A stretch of 15,737 nt of DNA from Acanthamoeba lenticulata. Its lineage: Eukaryota; Discosea; Longamoebia; Acanthamoebidae. The stretch spans positions 1 through 15,737 of the forward strand of contig NAVB01002015.1 of NCBI GenBank assembly GCA_002179805.1, written 5' to 3'. The translations under genes and the position numbers were made by a program. The notes under the pieces were generated by a model, which was given only the letters and a program-made list of their open reading frames with translations, did no database searches and was not told the origin of the DNA. Numbering within the stretch: position 1 is the stretch's first letter; each line of letters starts with the position of its first letter. This document shows positions 1 through 14,252 of this stretch, piece by piece.

Positions 1-1620
1 ATTTGCTGCTTGCGCTGCTCTTGTCCTTCTTGTCCTTTCGGCCACTGGCGCTGCTGGCGCTAGCCTCGGCCTCGGCCTTGTCCTTGGCGGCGAGGATCTC
101 GACCAGCGGCACCTGCTGCGCAAGCGCGGCGGCGCTGCGACCTCGGCTCTCAAAGTAGGCCCGCGCGTGTCGCTCCACCTGGCTCCGCGCGCACACCAGG
201 AACTCACAGCAGTCGTGTCCCAGCGCCCTGCACGACAGCTCCACCACCGCCAGCTTGTGGCGCGTAGCGAAATAAAATAAAATACCAAAACAAAGAACGA
301 AGATGAGAGGAAGCTGTGACATGAGGAAGAAGAAGAAGAAGAAGGTACCGCAGAGGAAGAAACAGGAGGGGGAGTGGCTGGGGGTGTGTTGCTTCGGTCC
401 CGCAAGCCTCGAGCGCTGAGAATCGTGGAGCCCTTCCTCCGTAGCTCGGGTACGTGCGCTGGTATCGTTGGCGCCTCACTCACGTCCGAGTCCGAGCGGC
501 CGGCGTGCATGCTCACCGCCTGCAGCGAGGCCGGCACTGCCAAGCCGCTGGCGCCTCGGCTCTTGTTGACAAAGGAAAAGATGGGCGCCGCCTCTGAGTA
601 CTTCTGCCAGCACTCGTTGAGGTAGCCGCTGACGTAGCCCGCCGCCATCACACACGCCGACGTGCGAAGCTCTCTTCGTTCTCGGGTCCTTCCGCTACTT
701 CCGCTATTGTGCTGGTGGTGATGGTGATGATTGTTGTTGCTGTTGCCGTCCTTGTCCTTGTCCTTATCCTTGTCCCGGTCACGGTGTTCCCTGTCCCGCC
801 TGTGGTGAGAGGTCGTCCCCTTGCTGCTTGCCTCGGCCTGCTTGAGGTAGACCGATGCCTCCATGGAGTTCTCAATGGTGAACAGCACGTAGAGGCCAGC
901 CGGCGACGAGCCAGAGCCGGACCCGGGCCCAAAGGAGCAGCTGAGGGTGGCGTAGTCGAACCGCACGCTGCCCCAGCCCGTGTAGGCCATCACCGTCGGC
1001 AGGCCAAACAGGAGCAGATCGGCAAACATCGACGGCGCCAGGTTGGCGGCCGCCGCGCCGCCCCGAGCCGACCCGACGGATGTGGTCGCCGCTGCAGAGT
1101 AGAGCGAGGCCAGGTAGGTGATGTCGACGCTTCGCTGGCTGACGACCTTGTTGAGAAAGTCGCGGTGGTCGTTGCTGCCCATGGCCGACGAAAAGTCAAA
1201 CAGGAAGTTGGCCGTGAAGGTCTCGGCATTCCGGCGCAGCTCGTCCCGCTCGCGCTCCTCTGCCGTGCTGGAAGCACCACCCTGTTGTTGCTGCTGGTGG
1301 GCGAGGACCGAGTCAAGACCGCCACCGGCTGCCGCGGCGCCAAAGGCAGCCAGGGCCGCATCGCCGACGAGGCGCGCGTCGATCTGCCGAGGTGCGCTGC
1401 TGCGGCGCGACTTGCTGCCCTCGCGCGCGGTCTCGGCCTCGCGCTGCTCGATCAGCATGCGCTCGACGATGTCCACAAACTCAAGCGAGATGGAGCTGCC
1501 TCGCACAAAGATGTGGCGCTCGTTGTTGAGCCGCACCTCGCCCCGCGCCGGCTCGCACGAGATCTCCTGGAACAGTTTGGAGAACTGGCGGCCGATCTTG
1601 TGCTGCACGCTGCGGAGCTG
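1..1620 (-). other. Sensor module copy 2: XylR_N-like plus V4R domain with large inserts
   Basis: Residues about 1188-1600. It repeats the order of copy 1: GEVRLNNERHIFVRG (1215 onward), then FDFSSAMGSNDHRDF, then LPTVMAYTGW, then an ENSMEAS element, then C1511 in ACVMAAGYVSGY, and finally E1572, C1575 and C1583 (ELSCRALGHDCC). The zinc-type ligand set is therefore complete again. Compared with copy 1 there are three low-complexity insertions: about 80 residues of Ala/Gln/Ser-rich sequence after the first block, a Lys/Asp plus His/Asn tract (1460s-1490s), and about 45 residues inside the V4R core before the last Cys pair. The 230-nt intron 254-483 separates the last Glu-Cys-Cys segment from the rest; its donor is gtgagt and its acceptor cacaag. 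The coding frame remains open at position 1. Confidence 0.75.
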
Positions 1621-4600
1621 CTTAAGCTGATCTGGTGGGAAGATGGGCTTGGGCGGGAGCTGCTCGTCGCAGTTGTCGGCTGAGGACGGCGAAGACGACA
1701 GCTCGCCACTGGAGCGGGACGTCCCGGACCGCGTTGGGCTCGCACTGCCGCTGCTTGAAAGAAGGGTGCTCTTGCCCTTGATGGACAACTTGCGTCGGAG
1801 CTTGGCCGCGGTTGAGTCCCCCGACGAGGAGGAAGAGGACGTCGATGTGCGGGGCAGGTAGGTCTGCGTTGTCGAGAGGAACTGAGGAATGTACAGGGAC
1901 TCCTTGTGGCCAGAGGCCAAGTGCTTGTTCTCTGCAAAAAATCTGATGTGTTGCGGTAACGTCAATCCACTGGGACGACGTGGTCAGCTCCGACGTCAGC
2001 AGAACAAGCGGCGTACCGGGAGATGTGGTCGTGAATGCGAGCCTCTGTGGCCATGACAAAGAGGCAGCGCTCGTCGCCCTTGGCCTTGCACAGGAGCTCC
2101 ACCGCGAGCAGCTCCGACGGGAAGTTGAAGCACGACGAGACCCACCCGCTGCTGTAGCCGGCGCCAAGGATGCACATGGGTCCCCGCGGCGCGTTCTCAG
2201 TTGACTGCATTCAATACGTTTCGTCAGCAATCAACGACCGTTCTGAGCGCAGGAAAACGGACAAGCGATGGCGGAACATACGCTGAGGAGGGACTTGGCG
2301 CCGGGCGCAGTCCAAGCGTCGGCCTCAAAGGAGAAGATGTGGTCTGAGTAGAGGAAGAAGCTGTCGCCCGGCTCCAACCGCGCCTGTAGGATCTCGATGA
2401 AGGCCCACCCGGTGTAGGAAAAGTAGACTGGCCCAGCCAGCGTCGTATCAACCCCTGGGATTCAACTCATGATGAACATTCATCCGTGATGGGTCTAGCG
2501 GACTGGCAAGACATCGCGAGTACCATGTGGGCAGGAGGATTTTTGGGCAAAGTTAAGGGCATCAGACTTGCCCAGCGAGTGGCCAAAGTCAAAGAGAAAC
2601 TGGTAGGCAAAGTCCTTGCCCCGGTCTCCAAAGTTGTCCTTGACCGCCTGGAAGAACTCGGTTGACAGTGCCGCCGCCCTGCACATACACACACATGTCA
2701 CTCGTTACGTTGGCCAAACGCTAAAGGCCTGGGGAGCAGATTTGGTACCGGAAGAGGAGATAGCGTTCGCCGCAGACCTCAATCGTTCCGTTCTTGGCTG
2801 ACTGGTAGCATTGCGCAAAGTAACGATCCACCAGGGCCTCAGCCTTAGCCATGGGCTCCATGAGCTCCTCGGGTCCCTGCCGCCCATCATGGTGAGACTT
2901 CACCAAGCTTCTAGATGTGGTGTGGTTGAGGAAGGGAACTGACCTGGCAGCGAGGCGCATCATGCCCGTCCTTGTGTCGCCGCTGTTGGCGGCGAGAGGG
3001 GGAAGAGGTCGACGACGACGACGCCCCCTTGTCGCGCTTGTCTTCGATAATGGATCCGCCTGTGCGAGACAACCTCCTCTCCGCTGGCGTCTTGCGTTCC
3101 CTATCCTTCTCTCTGGAGTCCTTTTCCCGTTCTTTCTCTCGGTCGCGGTCCTTATCTCGTGACTCGCGGTCCCGCTCCCGATCGCGATCTCGGTCACGTT
3201 CGCGGTCCTTGTCCTGCGCTGTTACTGCAGGTGTCCCCTTCTCGCGGACGTCGCGCGACGACTGGCCGATGTTTCGATCGAGACCCTTGGGCGACGAGCC
3301 GTCACGAGGCGAAGAACGCCGTTCTTCGGCGATCGCGGCGTCGACGTTGAGTCGGCCGAGCGACTTCCGTCGCTCTCGGGTGTCTTTTTCCCTTTCCTTC
3401 TCTCGTTCTCGTTCTCGTTCTCGCTCTCGGTCACGCTCCCGGTCGCGGTCTGACCGTGCCTCGCGTGATCGCTTGCTGTCCGAAGAACTTCCCGAGCCAG
3501 AACGCTCACGCCCTTCACGTGTTGAACGCTCACGACTCAAGCCGCTGATCTTCTCGCGGCCTGGCGATTCCAGAGCGCGAGGGCTGGTGCTCCCGTCGTG
3601 GCCACGAGCCGGCTGCACATCGTCGCTGATTCGCGACAGGTCGTCAGAGGAAGAACAGAAGCTCGAGTCCGACGATCGTTCTCGGGGCGAGGATGAACGG
3701 CTGTCGATGCGCTCGCTCGAGTTTTTGCACTTGGAGGTCTTGAGCGGAGTCGGAGTGGAGGTCGATCGAGGAGAGCGACGCGAGGTGGACGGGGACAGTT
3801 TCCCTTCACTGGAGGTACCCCTCGGACTGATGCTACCACTGGGGGTGGTCATGCTCGAGGATGTACTACTGCTGTTGCTGCCGGGAGCTGAGGTAAGGGA
3901 GATGGCAGGCATGGTGCCGCTCGTGAACGTTGAGGTTGTCGTGGCGGAGGAAGCAAAATCATTATCCGAGGCCGAGAGGTCAGGAGTTACTGGAATAGCT
4001 GACGCAGACTGAGAGAGCAGCGGCGGTAGCGGCACGTTGCTGGGAATGGCCAAAGGGATCGAAATGGAAGATAACGAAGAAGGCAGCAACGATAAAGACG
4101 AAGACAGCGAAGAGTCTGTGTCATCATCCTCCTGTCGGTCCAACGGTTGAGTTGGTGATTTGAGTTTGCCCGAGAGGTAACGGGAGGTGAAACGTACAGA
4201 TTGTGTGGTGTTGCTTTCCGTTTCGGGCTCATAGGCGATGGTCGATCGTGACGGATCAGTCGGCACAGGCCCCGACCTGCAACACAGTAAGTCCAGACGT
4301 CCTTGAGCGGGGAGAGTAGAGGGAGACGCACTTTCTGAACATATTCCACAAGCTGGGCTCGGCTTTGAGCGATAAGGTGTACAACTCATCCTGCACGCGA
4401 GAAATGAAAAGCCACAAAGGTTGAGGAAGCGAGCAGCAACATTTGAAGGTTGAGTGCCTGTGACGCACCTCGTTGTGAGAGTCATAGCAAGAAAGGGCGA
4501 GCAGCTTCTGCTGTATAAGCCTGTCTTCAGGAATGGGGTAGCTGACGCTCTGATACTTGGCGATGTCCTGTGTGCGCTCGTAGAGGAGACTGAGTAGGTC

Positions 4601-6456
4601 GAAATTGATTGAGTTGTCCGCCAAATAGGTCCGATTGCCGTCGTAGATAAAGGTGAAGTCGCGTAGGTACAGCCCTGTGCCGTGTCAAGGCCTAAGTTGA
4701 GAAACCGGATACAGAGGAGCAAGAGAGGAGCTGGGCCTCACCAAAGTAGGGCAGAACGGGAAGCGGCCGCGAGTTGAGCTCCTGTCTATACTGTCGGAAG
4801 TTCTGCTTCGCGCCCATGATGGCCTCCAGCTCTGCAAACTTGGCCTCATATTTGGCAGATAGGTTCTGCATTTCACCACGGAGAGAAGACACGCTATTCC
4901 GTCAGCCCTCGCTTGTGCGCTCGCAAAGTAGTGTTCATAAAAAAAAATCAAAGCCAGTTCGTACCTCCCACAGCCGCTTGAGTCGCTGCACAGAAGAGTT
5001 GTTCAACCCAGACAGGATCTCCATGAACGAGTTGAAATTGCCCAGCGCCAAACACTCTGTGTGCGTGTGAGCATTGGCGAACGGTCAATCACAATCGTTG
5101 AAGACAAGGAATAGGATCAGCGCCAGTACCGCCCGCCACCTGGATGAACTTCTTGACAGTTGCCAACTGCCCCTTGAGGTCCTTGGATTGTACGACCTCG
5201 GTTGCCACCCAATAGCCCACCTGTACCGTGAATCGAGACGTTCATAAGTTCACTTCATTTCACTATGTAGCAGCTGCGGTGGTGGTGCATACCCGGTTGA
5301 ACTGCTCGATCATGGCGGTGATGTTGGGCGAGTGCGTGATCTTGCTCTCCTTTTTCCATTGCTGCTTAAAGAACTCTTCGGGCCGCACCCGGCGGAAGAT
5401 GTTAAACTCGAAGACAGTCAATTGTGCGGCGAGCGTGGCCGGTGGCAGTTGTAGAAGCTCAAAGTCCTAGCGAAACGCCAGTGAGGAAACATTAAACAAG
5501 ACTTTCGTAGGTACGGTACCTTGCCGCGCCCGGTCGGCAAGCTCTCGGTTGACGTCAGAGCGAAAGAGTGGGAAGAAGTTGCGAGGAACGAGGAAGATAT
5601 GGAGGGTTGGATGCTATCCGGCTTTTTATCGCTGTACAAAGGTGTTGGGATGCTCTCTTCCACCGTCTGCGGACCTGGAAGAGCCACCGCCGAGAGCCCT
5701 GTTCGGTGGCTGAGTGTATGTGAAGGTCGATTGGTTCAGTCCAACCGCTAGCGGCGCGTGTAGACACAGCGGAAAAAGCAGCCGTACTACTTCTTGCGTA
5801 TGTACAAGAGCTTGAACTCGTTCGTGCTCTCAGTGCCCAGCTGGCAACACAGGAAGGGACAGCATTAGACTTTCTACGACATTGCATAACCTCCAACGTA
5901 CCCGCTGCGTCAACTGGAAGAGCTGCGACAGGTCTGCCCGGCCAAAGGAGACGTGATGCTTGTCCAGCCACTCTCGCAGAAAGACAACCATCCTGCTCGA
6001 AGAAGAGACGAGTCTGTGGCTGCCAGCACAAGAACCAGATCCGTACCTCTGTTGTTTCGTGGGCGTTGAGGCACCTCCGTCAGTCGCAACACCGGCGCCT
6101 TCGGACTTGGCGCGCGACACAAGCAAGAACGTAACAACGGTCAAGGATCAAATGGATTTAACATAAAGATTTGCATCAATTGGATAAATTGAATTGGATT
6201 GGGGTGGGGAGTGGAGGCAGTAAGGATATTCATCCATCCAGAGGCGAAGTAGAAGTGAAGACTTCACATCAAGGATGCGGTAGTTCTGCAAGAAGGCGCG
6301 CACAAGACCTGGACAATCAATGTGAACGTGAGATAGGTGGTGCGAGTGTGCACAAAGTGGGGAAGCGCTACGTAGATCATCCTCTTCCTGCATCAGCCTC
6401 TTGGCCAACGCCCTAAAGCTGTTCCTCCTCGCCTCCTCCTCGCATGAGCCATCCAT
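1..6456 (-). CDS. RasGEF protein with REM domain, RS-like linker and tandem XylR_N-V4R sensor modules (3' end outside window)
   Basis: Predicted to activate a Ras-family GTPase by GDP/GTP exchange, with C-terminal domains of a small-molecule-sensor type. I infer 19 exons, all GT-AG and phase-consistent: 6456-6372, 6308-6268, 6105-6047, 5992-5902, 5840-5788, 5709-5520, 5466-5293, 5220-5130, 5056-4965, 4865-4742, 4674-4469, 4390-4332, 4276-2944, 2876-2749, 2678-2524, 2454-2282, 2204-2017, 1942-484, 253-<1. They give about 1651 residues with no stop before the window edge. Order: REM (about 12-110), RasGEF (about 174-421), low-complexity linker (422-866), sensor copy 1 (about 867-1090), sensor copy 2 (about 1188-1600). 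The start at 6456 places the REM domain close to the N-terminus; an in-frame ATG at 6597 would add 47 basic residues. The least certain junctions are the introns at 6106-6267 and 5710-5787. The fusion could instead be two adjacent genes, but no stop codon or obvious new start separates them in the spliced frame. Confidence 0.72.
1915..2876 (-). other. Sensor module copy 1: XylR_N-like plus V4R domain
   Basis: Spread over exons 2876-2749, 2678-2524, 2454-2282, 2204-2017 and the start of the next. The first half reads GTIEVCGERYLLFRAAALS, a segment ending in FDFGHSLGKSDA, then AGPVYFSYTGW. This follows the pattern of the XylR_N domain of phenol/xylene regulators (G-x-I...R-x-LL..A..L, G..A....G...G..DA). 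A SFEADAW element then precedes the V4R core: C1029 in PMCILGAGYSSGW, then E1054, C1057 and C1065 (E-x2-C-x7-C). In DmpR/MopR-type sensors these four positions bind a structural zinc. V4R and the TRAPP subunit Bet3 share a fold, so a vesicle-traffic role for the domain is an alternative to chemosensing. Ligand unknown. Confidence 0.78.
3106..3214 (-). repeat. Arg-Asp/Arg-Glu coding repeat, tract 2
   Basis: This is a second, longer charged tract in the same linker (RDRDRERDRES, then DKDRDREKEREK). It is less perfect at the DNA level than tract 1, so it looks older or under selection for charge alternation rather than sequence. Confidence 0.85.
3388..3452 (-). repeat. Arg-Glu/Arg-Asp coding repeat, tract 1
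   Basis: Near-tandem CGAGAA/CGAGAG hexamers on the minus strand encode alternating basic and acidic residues (DRDRERDRER pattern ending in EKEREK). It lies in the RS-like linker of the RasGEF gene. Hexamer repetition suggests length variation by slippage. Confidence 0.85.
4332..6456 (-). other. REM plus RasGEF (CDC25-type) catalytic domain region
   Basis: This part encodes residues 1-421. The REM domain is recognisable from LVRAFLQNYRILD (about 30-42) and VVFLREWLDKHHVSF (64-78), which match the helix patterns at the start and middle of RasGEF_N domains. A short Ser/Gly/Thr insert lies between them. The catalytic domain starts near residue 174 and shows the family blocks in order: LAAQLTVFEFNIF, then a NITAMIEQFNRVGYWV block, then GNFNSFMEILSGLNN followed by RLKRLWENLSAKYE, then LPYFGLYLRDFTFIYDGN. 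Every catalytic-domain exon joins in phase, and each junction restores a conserved block (for example PYF-G-LYLRDF across the 4675-4741 intron). The region between REM and the catalytic domain is a Ser/Pro-rich spacer. Exchange activity is inferred from family membership; the GTPase partner cannot be read from sequence. Confidence 0.88.
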
Positions 6457-6794
6457 GATGACGAAGAGTGAACCCACACTCAGACCACAGGTCCTGCGCT
6501 CGCCCTCGCGAACGAGGCGTCTTTTTCCACTTCTTCGCTGCTGCTTTCTCGGCCTGCAAGTAGCGTGATCGACACCAGCATACCTTTCTGGGCACATGCC
6601 CTAAAAACCGCACATAACGAACAGCACAGGAACGAACGGAATGTGGTCTCGTAGTGCAGGTGGTGTTTGACAGGTAGTTGTGGCCACTTCTCTCTATTCT
6701 TGGGCGGCGGCCCACTGAGACATGTACAACACGGCCGAGCCAAGCAGAAGAGAGGAGAGAGAACAGGCACCGGGTAGTAAGCTGGCGCCCGCGC
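6457..6794 (-). other. 338-bp gap: RasGEF 5' region and phosphatase 3' region
   Basis: This stretch lies between the phosphatase stop and the chosen RasGEF ATG. On the minus strand it holds several short upstream ATGs that stop quickly, a possible 30-nt GT-AG element (near 6583-6554, ending ttgcag), and a frame open from an ATG at 6597 into the RasGEF start. That extension is Arg/Lys-rich and looks non-conserved, so I left it out, but an upstream start or 5'-UTR intron cannot be excluded. No clear TATA box or terminator was seen. Confidence 0.45.
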
Positions 6795-7563
6795 TTAGAG
6801 CCACTTGGGCGGGTTCTCTGGGATGCCCACTAGGTCCGTGTCGAAGAGCTCGATGAATTGCTCGTTCAGCAGACGAACCTGTGACGGTGGCAGAATTGCG
6901 TGAGACGAAGATGAAGATGCATGTGTGCACGCGAACTGGTGCCTGGAAGGCACGCACCTTGGAGCCGGCGTGTCGTCGATACTCTTCAAAGATGGAGGTG
7001 AGGTTCCATCGTTGCAGCTTCCGCATGCAACCGATCACGGTACCTGATAACAGCACCATCAGCAAAATGAAAAAGGGCAGGGAGAGGACTGGGCTTACCG
7101 CTCCGATGCCGACCCAGATTGCACATCACCGAGAGAGGGTAGTTCTTCGGGTCTAGAATGAGCTTCAACGCCGAAACGACTGTGTCCTGGAGAGTGCAGA
7201 AGCGGCAGATGAGCGGCAACACGATAAGCACGCCTCTGCTCGAGATGAACATGCACCTCCGATATAGGATTCCAAGGGTTCGAGATGCGAAGTTGCGAGT
7301 CCATGCCAAGATGGATCAGCTCAATGCCTTGGTCATCTACAAAATTGTAGCTGCCACGTGCCGAAATGAGGGCCAGCCAAGCCAAAGTCAAGTCATGAAG
7401 ACGTATCGTACAATTGTTGAGTAGGATCGTCGGGTGCGAGCCAAATGATGGTCTTAAGATTGAGACGCTCAAGGAAAGGAAAATTGAGGACATTCGGTTG
7501 CCCAGACCTGTACAAGTCCTCTTCCACCATCCCCCAGTTGATGGGAGGAATGTAGTGCGCCAT
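6795..7563 (-). CDS. Siw14/PFA-DSP-like atypical dual-specificity phosphatase
   Basis: A 167-residue protein from five exons: 7563-7412, 7350-7257, 7186-7099, 7043-6958, 6878-6795; all junctions are in phase. It matches the plant-and-fungal atypical phosphatase family. The start contains [17 protein letters not shown] and [23 protein letters not shown] segment follows, and the catalytic loop is [11 protein letters not shown]. The C-terminal [20 protein letters not shown] and EQFIELFD blocks are diagnostic. Cys104 and Arg110 form the CX5R active site. Family members such as yeast Siw14 hydrolyse inositol pyrophosphates (5-PP-InsP5), with weak phosphotyrosine activity. The residue before Cys, normally His, is Met103 here. 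It is a cytosolic-type protein with no signal peptide, and its length is close to the family core. Its start is 73 bp downstream of the NMNAT stop on the same strand. Confidence 0.93.
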
Positions 7564-7636
7564 CTTGCTTAATGTAAGAACACGGCGTTTGGTTTTCGTT
7601 TCTTTTTTCCTCAGCTTTTTTCTTTCGAGACGACGT

Positions 7637-8794
7637 TCAGCTCGCGAAGAGCAAGTGCAGACCATTGGCGAAGATGTACTGCGATACAGCAGGGCCCGTA
7701 AGGTCCTCTACTCCCTCCGATCGAGCCAACCTATGCCAAGGTGGTTTGGTGGTTAGCATGTGCATGCAGGCTTCAACAAGCTCAGCGACATACCGGTGTC
7801 GAATGGCCGTGGAGCTCACGTCTTCCGTCTCCACCTCCACGAAATAGCACATCCCCTCGGTGCGCTTGCGTTTCGCGATGCTATCGGTATGTCCGGTTCT
7901 GCATGGAGCTATATGAGAACGCACGTAACTACACGAACAAGGAGGGCAGTGCACACGTGCCTGGCTACCGCCACTACGGGGATGGTGTGGGAAACGCCGT
8001 GCAGGAGCCCACAATTGGTTGCGTGATCGGCACCACAGAGGTACATGATCACAATGTTGGGCGCCTCCAAGCGGAGCTGATTCCTGTAGGCCCGCTCTTA
8101 ACTTCATCGGGCCGACGACAAGAGCGGGCACTCAAGTGCACTTACTTGATGTATTTTTCGTGCACGCTGGCGACCTCGGGGAAGTCAACGAACGTGTTCT
8201 GTCGTGCTTCCCACTCGCTCACTGCCAGCCATGGCGAGTCTCTAGTGTATTGAGCCTATGAGCTTCTCGGTCCTCAGTGGGAGAATAAGCGGTGCCACGT
8301 ACTGGAGGCTGAGGCGGCACATGGCAATACGATGCTCGATAGTGATATGTGCGACCTTGTTCCTCCGCATCTGTTTGCATGTACAGCTCAGTGGGGAAGT
8401 GTTAGGCTTTGGGAGTACCTGAGCGCACCTTGCTCCCCACGTAGAGGTCGTGCGAAGGTGACATGAAGCCGGCCACCACCACAAAGTCGTGGCGCTCTTC
8501 AAGCCTGCTCAACACGTAAGCAGTTCGCGCTGACAGGAAGCAAACGGAACACCACTTACCAGTGCTTGGCCGCCTCGAAGACTGCAACATGCATGCGGTG
8601 GACGGGCGCATAAGACCTTGGCCGACCCCATGTCAATAAACAAGTTCAGTGTTACGCCAGAGAGAGGGGGGGTACCCAGTGGATACAAGCACCACCGGCA
8701 CCTTGCCTTGCGGGACAGACGCTAAGTTGGTTCGCAGTTTGTCCAACGGAATGTGTATCTCCTCTGTCCTCTTCTTCGCCAGCCCAAGCCTCAT
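7637..8794 (-). CDS. NMNAT: Nicotinamide/nicotinate mononucleotide adenylyltransferase
   Basis: Joins NMN (or nicotinate mononucleotide) to ATP to form NAD+ (or its deamido form) and pyrophosphate, the last shared step of NAD synthesis. A 247-residue protein from eight exons: 8794-8676, 8616-8560, 8504-8429, 8370-8303, 8241-8146, 8083-7955, 7898-7794, 7730-7637. Evidence in order: PVVLVSTGSYAPVHRMH, with the nucleotidyltransferase HxxH motif; FEAAKHW; VVVAGFMSPSHDLY; EHRIAMCRLSL; DSPWLAVSEWEARQ; IVIMYLCGAD; and the late VSSTAIRHR motif followed by a QYIFANGLH end. The usual GSFNP turn is GSYAP, and the segment after CGAD is shorter than usual. The acceptor at 7899 is chosen over one at 7880 because it keeps more sequence; both are in frame. 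Start ATG 8794 follows an A-rich leader. Confidence 0.9.
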
Positions 8795-8913
8795 CCCCTG
8801 TTTTGTGTTGCGGTTCGCAATCTTAATCTTTGTTTTTTCAGGTTTTTTTGATTTTTTGTTTTGCTTTTCTTTTTCTTTCGGCGAAACATGTAATCCATGA
8901 ACGGCGCGCATCT

Positions 8914-10101
8914 TCAGGGATCAATGTCATACATGAGACAGAAGAGCAAATTGACAAACTCTCCGAACGAGAGCTTGCCTGAGCCGTCCTTGTCCAACGC
9001 CTTCATCATGCGACTCACCTGCATCACCAATAAACACGCACAGTTGAGGTGGAGATGTCCCAAACTTGAATCAGAGTACCATACCTCAGAATCATTCTTA
9101 GCTTCGACATCCACTACGGGCAGGAGTTCTTTGAGTTCAGAAAACGAGAGCTCCCCAGATCCATCTTTGTTTGTGTGGGGCCAGTGAGACACATAAAAGC
9201 TAGAGGTAAGAAGGTGAGTTATACCATCGTCGGCGGCCTCAAAGATGGTCTCTGCACGCTTGAGGAAGAACTCCAACTGAAAGAATTCCTCATATCTGAA
9301 AAAGACAGGATATGAGATGAGGTTGCAAACAACAGCACAGAGAAACTCACCCGATGGACCCCGAGTCGTCCTCATCAACCTGGTGGACAAGGAAGCTTGA
9401 GTGGCACATTTCCCACGTGAAATGGTGGGACTGAACGCACCATGTGGAGGAAGAGCTTAATTTGATCGCGGCTGAACTTGTAGCCCACGGCACTGAGGGC
9501 TTCCTCCAGCTCCTAGTGTGTCATAACAAATTAGACGCACAAGCTAACAAAACGGGGCTAACCATGGTAAAGAACCGCATGGTCAATTTGTCCGCTGTCG
9601 TCAGTGTCAAACTTGCTGAAGACACGCTTTACCTGTGTCCAGCCACAAGTAAGACCAAGCACGTCACTCTAGAATCATGCACATACCTTGTGCGTGTAGG
9701 CAATAAGCTCTAAGAACTCGTCAAATGTGAGCTTTTTATACTTACCAGTGCTGCTAACAGATTGGATCAACACTGTCACCAGTCAGGAAAACCACGCCAA
9801 AACATGGAGAGATAAGAAGAAAGAAAACGAAAAACAGCGAAGCTCCTGCAAAGAGAGGGGGGGGGGGAGTGGCTTACCGCCTATCTGGGTGTCGGAGAAG
9901 TTGTGACCGCTCTGCTCATTCAGAATTACCTTCAACTCTTCTGCCTGCATAGCACACAGAAGTTAAAAGGGAAGGGTAAGGCGGCACAAGAACGGGAACA
10001 CGAACGTCAAGTTTGCCATTTTCATCGTCATCCAGGATGGCGAAGAGCTTGCGTAGTCGCCGAGTCGTAACTGCGTCAAACTCGCTCCCTCCGTCTGCCA
10101 T
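8914..10101 (-). CDS. Six-EF-hand calcium-binding protein (calbindin-like layout)
   Basis: A 220-residue protein from nine exons: 10101-10006, 9944-9878, 9772-9687, 9632-9576, 9512-9441, 9379-9351, 9295-9225, 9164-9085, 9018-8914. Five canonical 12-residue loops are visible: DDDENGKLDAEE (24-35), DTDDSGQIDHAE (92-103), DEDDSGSIGYEE (128-139), DDDGSGELSFSE (158-169) and DKDGSGKLSFGE (195-206). A sixth hand near residues 60-74 (SSTGKYKKLTFDEF) has lost the acidic calcium ligands. Several splice junctions fall inside loops and each restores a perfect loop, which supports the model. There is no membrane segment or signal peptide, so it is probably a cytosolic calcium buffer or sensor; the target is unknown. 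An in-frame ATG 33 nt upstream (10134) could add 11 residues. The last exon ends 119 bp before the NMNAT start. Confidence 0.92.
9857..9867 (+). repeat. G11 homopolymer in an EF-hand gene intron
   Basis: Eleven consecutive G on the plus strand form an uninterrupted C-run within the intron 9877-9773, close to its donor. Likely a slippage or assembly-error site; no function inferred. Confidence 0.9.
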
Positions 10102-10372
10102 GTCGGTGGTGAAAAGGAAACAGTTATTTGGCAACCTTTTTCTTTTCCGGCGACGAAGTCAAGCCCAGCTTCATTTTCCCTATGCACCCGCTTCGTGCCG
10201 ACCCAAAAGCCCAAACCTGTAAACCTTCTTTTGGCTTTGCAGGATTGGCGAATTATTCCTCGTGGGCAGTTACCTGAGCCCGACACCACGAAAGTTCTGT
10301 TTGTTTGTCCGCCGCAGTGGTGACTTAAGGTTGCAAGCGCGGTCTTGCTTTCTTCTTTTCAACCGGCCCACA
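10102..10372. promoter_or_regulatory. Divergent promoter region between EF-hand and ependymin-like genes
   Basis: These 271 bp separate two start codons that point away from each other, so both promoters must lie here or overlap the genes. The side near the secreted-protein gene has a pyrimidine-rich stretch (about 10342-10360) just before its ATG. No clear TATA box was found; the AATTATT at about 10250 is the only AT-rich candidate. Confidence 0.5.
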
Positions 10373-11041
10373 ATGATCCGCACCCTTATCCTTACTACTG
10401 CTGTGTTCGTCTTCCTCGCGGTGGCTGGTGTGATTGCCGCTCCGTCGCAGCCCTCCTTCCCTAAGGACTACCATGCCGCCTTTAGCCAGATGACTGCTTC
10501 ATCTGCCGGCCAGAACTTCACCTTCACCGACGGTAGCCTTATCATCAGCAGCAGCCTTGAGGCGACCTTCCAGACCGGCCTCATGTTTGGCTTGGAGGTC
10601 TCGTCGCTCAATCTTTACAAGCAAAAGTTCACCTTCTCGTGGGCTGCTGCCGGGCCATGCAGAAGGACTCCGCTCGACACACCCTTCTCGGATCCGCTCA
10701 GCCTCATCCAGTACACGACCTACAAGGGCCTCGAGGTCGTGAATGGCCGCCAGACCCAGAAGTGGACGTTCGAATACGGTACTCTGCTGGTCCAGGTCTT
10801 CGTGACCAACAACAGCAGCCAGGAGCCTGTGCGCTACGTCGTCAACAACCAGGGCACTGGCATCCTTATTGATTTCACCAGCTTTGCCGCGGGCGCCTCG
10901 GCCAGCGTCTTTGTCCCGCCTCGTTCGTGTGCCAGCAGCGTCGTCGCTCACCTCGGGGCCAGGAGCCAGCATCACAATGTGGACGCCTTCGCCGCCGTCA
11001 ACGCGGTTGTGGAGTCTGCCATCGCCTCGCTTCAGGCGTAA
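10373..11041 (+). CDS. Secreted ependymin-like protein (intronless)
   Basis: A 222-residue single-exon protein. The N-terminus is a clear signal peptide (MIRTLILTTAVFVFLAVAG, probable cleavage near AIAA/PSQP at 21-24). The mature part is a beta-rich-looking domain with only two cysteines, C96 (GPCRRTPLDTPF) and C186 (VFVPPRSC), well placed for a disulfide. It also has N-glycosylation sequons at N48 and N146/N147. The order Cys-x-pF, a WTFEYG segment, a PV segment, an IDFTSF segment and an SVFVPP-C end resembles ependymin-related secreted proteins. Sequence identity by eye is low, so the family call is tentative. The start at 10373 is chosen because it begins the signal peptide; the in-frame extension upstream is not signal-like. 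It is intronless, unlike every complete neighbour. Function unknown; extracellular lipid- or ligand-binding is possible if the family call holds. Confidence 0.72.
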   Translation: MIRTLILTTAVFVFLAVAGVIAAPSQPSFPKDYHAAFSQMTASSAGQNFTFTDGSLIISSSLEATFQTGLMFGLEVSSLNLYKQKFTFSWAAAGPCRRTPLDTPFSDPLSLIQYTTYKGLEVVNGRQTQKWTFEYGTLLVQVFVTNNSSQEPVRYVVNNQGTGILIDFTSFAAGASASVFVPPRSCASSVVAHLGARSQHHNVDAFAAVNAVVESAIASLQA

Positions 11042-11187
11042 ACTTTAAACAGTTCGGCTTTTCGATTGACCTAAAAGCTTTACCGCTCCATCAGCATGTC
11101 GTCCACGCTGTCCCCGGCTGAGGTGTTGGTAGGGCTGACGTTGCAAAGAACTTAGGGCTGTAACACTAGTTCATGGAAAGGAGTTTT
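11042..11187. other. Convergent intergenic spacer
   Basis: These 146 bp between two stop codons must hold both 3' ends. I see no AATAAA signal or stem-loop that stands out. Confidence 0.5.
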
Positions 11188-12549
11188 TTACACGTCACCA
11201 ACGATCTTTACGACGTTGACGTGCTCTACAAAGGCCTCGATAACGGCTTCCGCTCGCGCCTTTTCCTCGTCGCTGAGCGCAAGCGTGACCGGCGTCTCGC
11301 GCTGGCAAGCGCCCTTTTCTGTGTGAGCATGCAGCAGTCGTGCGTGAGACTCACGTGTGTATTGCCCGGGCGCGAGAGAGGAGCACGTACCTCGCCTAAC
11401 ACCGTCCTTGGGGCCAAGGTGCTGCGCGAGCGGGATGAACCCATAGGCGGTCAGCTCGGGATAGTTCTGTACAAAGTAGCGCGTCACTGTGTCGCGAGCG
11501 GTGGTCGACGAGACGTCAATGTGAACAACAAGCAAGCAAGAAGCCATATATGAAGATGAGAAACGCACCATGGTCCTTAATGTCCTCGAAGGGGTCCTCC
11601 ACCTTGTTGAACACTGCGCCCAGCACGCGGACGCCAAAGTGCTCAAAGTAGACCTTGTTGATGTTAAAGCTATCGATCGCGTCACCCACACCTATACAAT
11701 GATCACAACCGATGGCGCCATTCATCAACTTCAACATCACAAGCTCACCACCAGACAAGCTTATAAGCTGTTGCGCCGTACCACTTCGGCCCACAAGGAG
11801 CACGGGGATGTTGAGGCGCTGAGCGATCTGAGCATTCGACACGCCGACGACACTGAGCGCACAGGAGGAGCGGTGGTGAGCGCACAAACATACGGCGGTG
11901 CACTTGCTGGACTTTTGTTAGAGGCAACGCACCTGCCGACCGAGGGATAGCCCACGCCGTCCACGATAACGAACTGCACACACGCGAAAAGCCAGCGAGG
12001 ATGAGATATGGCCTGAAGAGGGGCGCAAGCGGGAAAGATGGCACCTTCTTGCCCTTAGCGATGGTTTTGACGGCATCCTCGATCTTGTCCAGCAGCTCCT
12101 TGGGCGATGGACCCACGCCATTGATGCACTCGCGCGTGAAGCCCGTGTAGAACACCACCGGCCCTATGCCGCGGTGCGCGATGCCTGGAGGAGCATGTCG
12201 CAGTCAGCAAGCCAGCATGTTCCCCGGCGCGTTAAATCAGACGGAGAAGCAGCAACCATGCAAGTGGCAGTACTTGGACACAAGCTGCACGTCGATGCAT
12301 TGGGTGGCGGGCTTGATGTAGGCGATTTCTTCCGGCTTGTACAGACCCTGTAACGAACGCGCGTGAGCGTTTGGCAACAGCATCTTGCTTTTCAGCGGAG
12401 CAACGAACGGTGCGAAGAAGAGAGCCGAGGAGGCCGAGAGCGACAGTGCTCTTGCCCACAGAGGCGCGATCACCCGCCACAAAAATCATCTTTGGTCCGA
12501 TCTCGTGAGTTACGAGCGATTCGACCGGGACGGGTGGTGCTGCCTCCAT
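11188..12549 (-). CDS. Dethiobiotin-synthetase-like P-loop NTPase (AAA_26/CobQ-like), function unknown
   Basis: A 307-residue protein from seven exons: 12549-12409, 12347-12257, 12184-12045, 11973-11933, 11852-11569, 11486-11391, 11318-11188. MIFVAGDRASVGKST (21-35) is the deviant Walker A loop of the BioD/CobQ group, with the same spacing as GTDTEVGKT. KPEEIAYIKPATQ fits the strand and loop that follow in BioD-like folds. FVIVDGVGYPSVGSVVGVSN is the Walker B and switch region, followed by IPVLLVGRSG, then VLGAVFNK (conserved Asn-Lys base contact), ELTAYGFIPL and a C-terminal helix. Biotin synthesis cannot be assumed: related P-loop domains also sit in phosphotransacetylases and in stand-alone proteins without assigned reactions. 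Probably cytosolic. The start at 12549 gives a short leader before the P-loop and is divergent from WDR82. Confidence 0.85.
11692..11709 (-). other. In-frame 18-nt GT...AG segment: micro-intron or coding insert
   Basis: Inside the long exon 11852-11569, the 18 nt gttgtgatcattgtatag begin with GT, end with AG and are a multiple of three. Read through, they add six residues (CDHCIG) in a Gly-rich turn; removed, the protein reads NGAIGVGDAIDSF, which looks more like a conserved turn. I kept it as coding because 18 nt is shorter than the other introns here. Confidence 0.35.
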
Positions 12550-12711
12550 TGTGGTTGTTTGCAGTTTGCAGAACACGCAGCGAGCAAGAGCGCACGTTGA
12601 GCGCCAGCAAGGCGCGACGTAAGCTGTCCCCTTAACTAAGCGTTTTCTTTGCTTTTGTTTTCAGTTTCTTTTCGCTCTTGGATCTAACAAGATCCAACAG
12701 CTCAAACCTTC
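12550..12711. promoter_or_regulatory. Bidirectional promoter between P-loop NTPase and WDR82 genes
   Basis: Only 162 bp separate the two divergent start codons. The WDR82-proximal half is pyrimidine-rich (12640-12680) and may include a 5'-UTR acceptor-like ttttcag. No TATA box is obvious. Confidence 0.55.
12680..12695. repeat. Perfect inverted repeat GGATCT-aaca-AGATCC
   Basis: A 6-bp palindromic pair with a 4-nt spacer ends 16 nt before the WDR82 ATG. It could be a protein-binding dyad or a small RNA hairpin in the leader; chance occurrence is possible at this length. Confidence 0.5.
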
Positions 12712-14252
12712 ATGGCGCGCATTGACGATGATGTCGTGCATGCCATGGCCATGGGCAAGGTCTTCAAGGACAATGTGCGTATATTACAAATTTGATGTGG
12801 TTGGCCGTCCATTTTTGCCCAATCGTTCTCCGCTCAATCGTACCATTCCCCGTGCGCCACTATGCACAGACGTCCAGAATCAATTCGCTAGATTTCTACA
12901 AAACGGGGGAGCACCTCGTTACCGCCAGCGACGATGAATCGATTCACGTCTACAATGCCGTGTCTGGCAAGTACGTTCGTTGCACGCAGCTGCTGGCCAC
13001 GCCCATGGGCTCACCACAACCACGCTCGGGCGCGTGCATCCACCTCCCCTCCAGGATGACAAGAACAGTGCTGAGCAAGAAGTACGGTGTTGACCTCATC
13101 CGCTGGACGCACAACGAGAACACCGTCATCTGCGCCTCCAAGAACTCGTGGGACGGTACGTGGTGTTGGGATCCCATCAAGCCTTCCTTGGTAGTGCAAT
13201 GCTGACACAACCGCGCACCGCGCACAGAGACACTACGGTATTTGTCGCTGCACGACAATCACTACCTGCGGTACTTCAAGGGCCATCGCGACCGCGTGAC
13301 ATCGCTCGCTATGTCGCCCGTCGACGACACCTTCCTCTCGGCCTCGCTCGACAGCACCGTCCGCCTGTGGGACCTCCGCACCAATGCTTGCCAGGTATTT
13401 CCCATCTTCACTACTATCATCATGATCGACCTTCATCATGTTCATCTATCAACTGTGGTGCAGGGCCTAATTCGACGGACGGGACGAGCGAGCGTGGCCT
13501 ACGACGCGCAGGGCCTTATTTTCGCTGTGGCCACCGCCAACAATGCCATTAAACTCTACGACCTGCGATCGTTTGAGAAGGGTCCGTTCGCCACGTTTAC
13601 CGTGGAGCACCCGGTGCCGCTGCAGTGGACGGGCATCAAGTTCAGCAACGACGGCAAGTACATCTTGCTCCCCACGACCGAGAGCCCTATCTTCCTGATC
13701 GACGCCTTCACCGGCAAGAAGGTCTCCTCTTCCTCCTTCCTCCTCCTCACTGATCTTCTTGTTGATCGTCCTACCCGCGTGAAATGGAGCAGAAACAAAT
13801 GTACACAACGCGCATCAACGACCACCAGTCCGTGCTGGAGGCCTCGTTCTCGCCCGACGCGCAATACGTGCTCTCCGGTGCGTGTCTGCAGTTTGGTGTG
13901 CGTGGCCGCGGCGTGGTGACCCATGACGCTGATGATGATGATGCTGATGCTGATAATGATGATGATCGGCCTGGGACGCACACAGGATCCGAGGACGGGT
14001 CGGTGCACGTGTGGAACACGGTGAGCGGCGAGCAGGTCGCGGTGTGGCGAGGCCACGCGGGCGTCGTGGGCGCCGTCCAGTGGAATCCACGGTATGCATT
14101 GTTTCTTTTCTCCCTTTCTTGCTTGTGCGTCATCAACATGATGAGGTTGTCATGAACCTCACCCGATCGTGTTCATCTCCAGGTACATGATGGCCGCGTC
14201 GTCCGACTTCCGATTAGTGTTTTGGATCCCGGGAGACAAGGACAAGGATTGA
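12712..14252 (+). CDS. WDR82: WDR82/Swd2 WD40-repeat protein, SET1/COMPASS subunit
   Basis: A 316-residue protein from eight exons: 12712-12774, 12870-12970, 13055-13155, 13228-13394, 13464-13721, 13793-13877, 13986-14091, 14183-14252; every junction is in phase. It matches WDR82 along its full length and is nearly the same size as the animal protein. [37 protein letters not shown] [44 protein letters not shown] and [10 protein letters not shown] are close to invariant in the family. In other eukaryotes it recruits the SET1 H3K4 methyltransferase to Ser5-phosphorylated RNA polymerase II, and it also joins PP1/termination complexes; it acts in the nucleus. It ends in a short Lys/Asp tail. The donor at 13722 (gtctcc) is weak but required by phase and homology. 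Confidence 0.96.
13931..13966 (+). repeat. GAT trinucleotide repeat in a WDR82 intron
   Basis: An imperfect (GAT)n tract with GCT and AAT interruptions lies in the intron 13878-13985. It is a microsatellite, not coding in the WDR82 frame. Confidence 0.85.

Follow-up and report, generated by a model that had tools for sequence, protein, structure and literature searches.

The stretch of DNA analysed here (the window) comprises bases 1-15737 of contig NAVB01002015.1, hereafter C1253, in the genome of Acanthamoeba lenticulata (48.5 Mb searched, 1825 contigs), and it carries on its minus strand, starting at position 6456, a gene whose product is a predicted Ras exchange factor, the exchange activity itself being a prediction, in which a RasGEF catalytic domain is joined through a long linker to two tandem sensor modules of the bacterial XylR_N-V4R type. 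The exons of this gene were modelled by script and by eye or hand, and the model was testable because the assembly keeps the region as two separate versions at 96.9% identity, C1253 and C213, which are read as haplotypes; C213 aligns with window positions 1-14246 and was used as the second haplotype.

In its final form the model comprises 20 exons with 1709 codons inside the window, contains no stop in either haplotype, and shows GT-AG borders at all 19 introns in both. An initial model with 19 exons and 1731 codons was dropped when C213 proved to have a frameshifting insertion of 5 base pairs (bp) inside the supposed linker exon; the insertion is explained by an extra intron of 66 bp at 4197-4132 (GTACGT...ACAG), which was therefore added to the model, and once this intron is removed all haplotype indels in exons are multiples of 3. 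The sequence-only reading that preceded this analysis had proposed a single phase-continuous gene running from the RasGEF domain through the linker into two sensor modules, and the conserved frame and splice sites in C213 bear this out, except that the gene does not end within the extent of 1..6456 assigned to it: in C213 the stop codon lies 3 codons beyond the window edge, and the gene runs past the window end. That reading had also placed a doubt on the junction between linker and first sensor at 2877-2943. The junction is a short GT-AG intron, and in the paralogs on contigs C1302 and C1326 a single uninterrupted open frame covers both the linker and the first helix of sensor 1, so that the doubt is answered; the messenger RNA is accordingly predicted, from these frames and borders, to be spliced as modelled. 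The haplotypes differ at 50 of 5107 aligned exon sites (1.0%) and at 53 of 1299 intron sites (4.1%). The ratio of nonsynonymous to synonymous polymorphism (pN/pS) is 0.11 for the whole gene. By part it is 0 for sensor 1, 0.04 for RasGEF, 0.13 for the linker, 0.14 for sensor 2, 0.20 for the REM part and 0.35 for the stretch between the sensors, all computed from small counts (39 synonymous against 14 nonsynonymous changes over the gene, counted by codon). This pattern fits a single gene under purifying selection, to which the linker between its halves is also subject.

The full catalytic domain is present in the RasGEF half, where PF00617 is covered at positions 2-178 of 181, RasGRF1 aligns over residues 220-451 (E=1.6e-38), and Epac2 and SOS also align. 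The RasGEF assignment made from the sequence alone is thus strongly supported, while the REM domain proposed with it is seen as a weak match below the cut-off (Table 1). In the sensor half, copy 1 is matched by XylR_N over positions 9-97 of 101 (E=2.5e-4) and then by V4R (E=6.9e-4), and copy 2, once its inserts are trimmed, by V4R (E=9.3e-7); all three of these single-module Pfam matches lie below the curated cut-offs. Among the six modules scanned, XylR_N was found at a threshold of 0.001 in two, always under the cut-off, and V4R in all six, in three of them above it. A profile built from the six modules of three genes matched MopR at E=3.4e-15 (MopR residues 13-193), CapR/DmpR at 1.3e-7 and PoxR at 3.8e-7, and copy 2 is supported as well by alignments with paralogs and with metagenome proteins. 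The predicted fold of a relative of copy 2 matches PoxR and MopR far better than TRAPP, which scores a lower Z; no TRAPP family was listed for any of the six modules, with E values up to 10 admitted, in a search whose filters can lose weak hits with E over roughly 0.1. When the genome was searched exon by exon with the XylR_N family, neither it nor the control genomes gave a match. The presence of two modules resembling those of MopR and DmpR, with both domains in the proposed order in copy 1, is upheld, and their residue bounds, earlier put at 867-1090 and 1188-1600, are corrected to those in Table 1, which also lists the neighbouring genes.

Table 1. Features of the window, in forward-strand coordinates; exon coordinates are given in the direction of transcription
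Feature	Position	Strand	Details
Whole gene, exons 1-10	1..6456	-	6456-6372, 6308-6163, 6105-6047, 5992-5902, 5840-5788, 5709-5520, 5466-5293, 5220-5130, 5056-4965, 4865-4742
Whole gene, exons 11-20	1..6456	-	4674-4469, 4390-4332, 4276-4198, 4131-2944, 2876-2749, 2678-2524, 2454-2282, 2204-2017, 1942-349, 253-1
REM-like region (RasGEF_N)	5935..6420	-	exons 1-4; weak, PF00618 E=0.0055, below cut-off
RasGEF (CDC25) catalytic domain	4598..5433	-	residues 220-394, exons 7-11; PF00617 E=1.6e-60
Disordered-looking linker, Ser/Arg/Asp/Glu-rich	2944..4275	-	residues 458-879; interrupted by the 66-bp intron
Intron between linker and sensor 1	2877..2943	-	67 bp, GT-AG (GTCAGT...GCAG); kept in C213
Sensor copy 1 (XylR_N-V4R)	1942..2876	-	residues 880-1095; XylR_N 2801-2384, V4R 2186-2052
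Sensor copy 2	146..1638	-	residues 1196-1662, low-complexity inserts; V4R 675-194, divided by intron 348-254
Tyrosine phosphatase start	7393-7707	-	PF03162 E=2.3e-13
EF-hand protein exon	8914-9456	-	PF00036
Open frame with signal-peptide-like hydrophobic stretch	10223-11041	+	no Pfam match at E 0.01
WD40 repeat protein	12732-13919	+	WD40 repeats
PA-domain protein, near contig end	14972-15580	+	PF02225

The gene in the window is one of a family. Searches with both modules of C1302 gave matches on 11 contigs of this genome, of which that on C850 (E=0.04) was dropped when the profile scan gave it no support, and the remaining ten contigs are read as at least six genes: A (C1253/C213, the window gene), B (C1302/C12), D (C1326), E (C345), F (C1176, with C736 and C1746) and G (C423). 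This number is a lower bound, since only the best candidates were scored and more may exist, and the sensors on C736 and C1746, whose upstream parts lie off the contig, probably continue C1176, judging from where the matches break off. Genes A, B, D, E and F have a RasGEF domain upstream on the same strand (E=1.5e-43 in B, 1e-48 in E and 1e-56 in F). Gene G, at positions 3296-7818 of C423, instead encodes a RasGAP domain followed by two XylR_N-V4R-type modules in one predicted gene; the domain matches PF00616 at E=1.7e-15 and neurofibromin at E=3.7e-15, with alignment of the finger-motif arginine, which we take to be the catalytic finger. The domain scans of the six genes thus show that every sensor gene found pairs its sensor with a regulator of Ras, five with an activator and one with an inactivator, and the fusion first described for one gene extends to five further sensor-bearing genes, one of them encoding the RasGAP. 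Two RasGEF relatives, on C645 and C686, showed no sensor in the stretches read. At two other loci, C816 5854-7698 and C1023 5369-7213, a single open frame of about 1370 residues contains two RasGEF matches.

The sequence-only reading had taken the modules for aromatic sensors of the DmpR/XylR/MopR kind, and the residues of the binding site do not bear this out. DmpR binds zinc through three cysteines and one glutamate and holds phenol between His100 and Trp128 (PMC7264223), and in MopR phenol is anchored by the pair His106/Trp134 and ringed by hydrophobic residues (PMC10715001). The Cys-Glu-Cys-Cys zinc site is complete in both window copies and in nine of the ten modules tabulated for this genome; copy 2 of C423, which was joined by hand, is the exception and lacks one zinc cysteine. 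The phenol-anchoring His/Trp pair is absent from all ten: at the positions of MopR His106/Trp134, copy 1 of the window has Phe/His and copy 2 has Met/Ile. Ala112, Tyr161, Ser162, Trp165 and Phe191 are common to window copy 1 and its bacterial relatives, and copy 1 of C1302 has them as well; the bacterial counts (80/80 at several positions) are inflated because the loci were fetched by patterns covering positions 106, 112 and 134, and three tabulated proteins from word searches show the same residues. Since these pocket residues are held in common, window copy 1 probably retains the ligand class of its bacterial relatives, and it is predicted not to be a phenol sensor of the MopR kind. The open-access literature found names no ligand for the bacterial XylR_N-V4R sensor kinases.

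The closest relatives found for the sensor come from Planctomycetota, Myxococcota, Bacteroidota, Desulfobacterales and other bacteria; they are signalling proteins, and most are sensor histidine kinases. When the full protein of the initial model was used as query and scored on copy 1, six of 665 candidates matched, at 40-45% identity over 89-100% of the copy; all six are signalling proteins of bacterial type, of which five have histidine-kinase domains and the sixth has GGDEF/EAL. The module profile gave 20 matches, ten of them at 37-42% identity (seven of these ten with histidine-kinase domains), the others being one bacterial-type fragment (P0017) and nine weaker matches that mostly resemble orthologue exons from metagenomes. 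In prokaryote genomes 203 stretches match the search pattern and 167 encode a relative; among the best 80 of these 167, 78 open reading frames were scanned for domains (two were omitted for length), with V4R found in 78/78, XylR_N in 69/78 and HATPase_c in 49/78, and no RasGEF or RasGAP domain among the 25 families listed out of 30. The best 80 (L023-L102) represent a large class of signalling proteins, mostly sensor kinases, that take their input through XylR_N-V4R and whose pocket (Phe106, Ala112, His134, Trp165) is well conserved. These kinases, named in their sources as XylR N-terminal domain-containing or as predicted hydrocarbon binding proteins, have the same zinc site and shared pocket residues as copy 1 and differ in carrying bacterial outputs where the window protein has RasGEF. 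In viral contigs none of 34 stretches matching the pattern encodes a relative, and a viral source was rejected on this ground.

The 69 rows of a first tree comprised 40 of the 80 loci, P0021, 11 modules from the genome analysed here, 13 proteins from the searches and four activators in which the sigma54 domain was checked. Modules of the sigma54 activators fall in one clade (support 100/99), and those of copy 2 in a second (98/95). Of the five copy 1 modules, four cluster with one another (90/97) and do so among bacterial modules; a second tree of 44 rows, with five long-branched or incomplete rows removed and fewer bacteria, agrees. Relatives and trees together make transfer from bacteria the likely source of the sensor, so that the transfer suggested earlier can be graded probable. 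The likeliest history would be bacterial transfer, then fusion, tandem doubling (before or after the transfer) and spread to a RasGAP. P0027 and P0021 are intron-free metagenome relatives of copy 2, the former also holding the end of a copy 1, and they suggest that tandem sensors occur in other lineages; plasmids gave no match to P0027.

The reading that we favour, and hold to be somewhat probable, is that the window protein works as a switch on its own: a small hydrophobic ligand, probably something other than phenol, would alter the sensors and thereby raise or lower Ras activation. The ligand would enter copy 1, in the same kind of pocket as in the bacterial relatives, while copy 2 would have a different, more greasy pocket or a mainly structural role; binding would change a dimer or a contact with the remaining protein and so alter the access of Ras to the RasGEF domain. 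The simplest transmission would be relief of inhibition or a change of dimer state as in DmpR, whose sensory domain holds back its output when phenol is absent (PMC7264223), a model that is carried over here. For gene G, the RasGAP would be the target of this signal. A broader proposal, which we put forward tentatively as the less probable part, is that a whole system of Ras control has been built from the input half of a bacterial sensor kinase, the tandem sensors on several activators and an inactivator letting one hydrophobic chemical, perhaps from bacterial prey, set Ras both ways without a membrane receptor.

A number of observations weigh against these proposals. Copy 1 of C1326, C345 and C423 keeps the bacterial pocket only in part, and the pocket of copy 2 differs from that of MopR and from those of the bacterial relatives. 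The fold predicted for the window’s own copy 2 exon is too poor to use (predicted local distance difference test score, pLDDT, 61.5; best PDB match PoxR, E=2.4), and the good structure model, which resembles PoxR and MopR, is of a relative only 27% identical to copy 2. The exon joins of C1326, C345 and C423, made by hand or by simple script, are less certain than those of genes A and B. Tree branches are long, which affects the details of the sensor history: C423 copy 1 stands apart from the other copy 1 modules and pairs, through a long branch, with a bacterial row; support for the placement of copy 1 within bacteria reaches only 90/85 and 90/93 at the forks concerned; and a tree in which copies 1 and 2 are constrained together is not rejected (approximately unbiased test, p-AU 0.33), so that one and two sensor origins are both compatible with the data. 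The RasGEF domains of the fused genes form one clade in 40% of 200 bootstrap trees (13 rows, two of them the same C345 domain), and a single clade is thus not supported.

Among the rival explanations, the one that fares best, and is still rather unlikely, holds that the modules no longer sense a ligand and act as dimer or membrane anchors, like Bet3 in TRAPP. Against it stand the pocket residues of the bacterial relatives kept in window copy 1, the far better structural match of a relative to PoxR and MopR, and the lack of a listed TRAPP match, and an origin from TRAPP was rejected on the last two grounds; Bet3 moreover serves vesicle tethering and not Ras exchange. That a phenol or aromatic sensor of the DmpR/XylR/MopR type drives Ras, as first proposed, would agree with the XylR_N-V4R order and the profile match to MopR. 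MopR, DmpR/CapR, PoxR and XylR have that order and the zinc site in common with the window protein, and their fold resembles that of a relative, but these have a sigma54 AAA+ output in place of RasGEF and lie in a separate clade, and phenol sensing, rejected because the His/Trp pair is missing, has become improbable. That the RasGEF and the sensors belong to two adjoining genes, or to different transcripts, might be imagined from the 67-bp intron and long linker that separate the halves; the phase maintained across 20 exons in two haplotypes, the shared frame of linker and sensor in two paralogs, and the same order in five RasGEF genes and one RasGAP gene led to the rejection of a split and leave it very improbable. 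Bacterial contamination or an assembly chimera, suggested by the 40-45% identity of sensor 1 to bacterial-type proteins, can be dismissed almost entirely in view of the introns within the sensors, the eight contigs where RasGEF or RasGAP exons accompany them, and the diverged haplotypes and paralogs.

Exchange factors of the Ras family in which a small ligand controls exchange are already known: the CDC25 domains of Epac (RAPGEF4) and RasGRP match the window protein, and their sensing domains respond to cyclic AMP or to diacylglycerol and calcium where the window protein has XylR_N-V4R. Within the literature searched, no description was found of the sensor, of where it comes from or of its presence on both an activator and an inactivator. 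A search of open-access full text found no paper pairing V4R with RasGEF, V4R with RasGAP, or XylR_N with V4R, in line with the earlier statement that no described protein of this layout was known, and among the open-access V4R papers listed that mention eukaryotes or amoebae, as in further listings, none reported a fusion to a Ras regulator in its title or the beginning of its abstract; subscription papers and eukaryote protein databases lay outside this scope, and an automatic annotation of the layout may exist. Eukaryotic Ras is normally reached via receptors and second messengers; here the exchange factor itself, and a Ras inactivator, carry the bacterial-type sensor. The finding also brings into view the large class of sensor kinases described above, and, if the proposal is true, the family would provide a test case for the rewiring of transferred sensor domains, a compact part for chemically controlled Ras, and a direct route from a chemical to Ras by reuse of a bacterial sensor.

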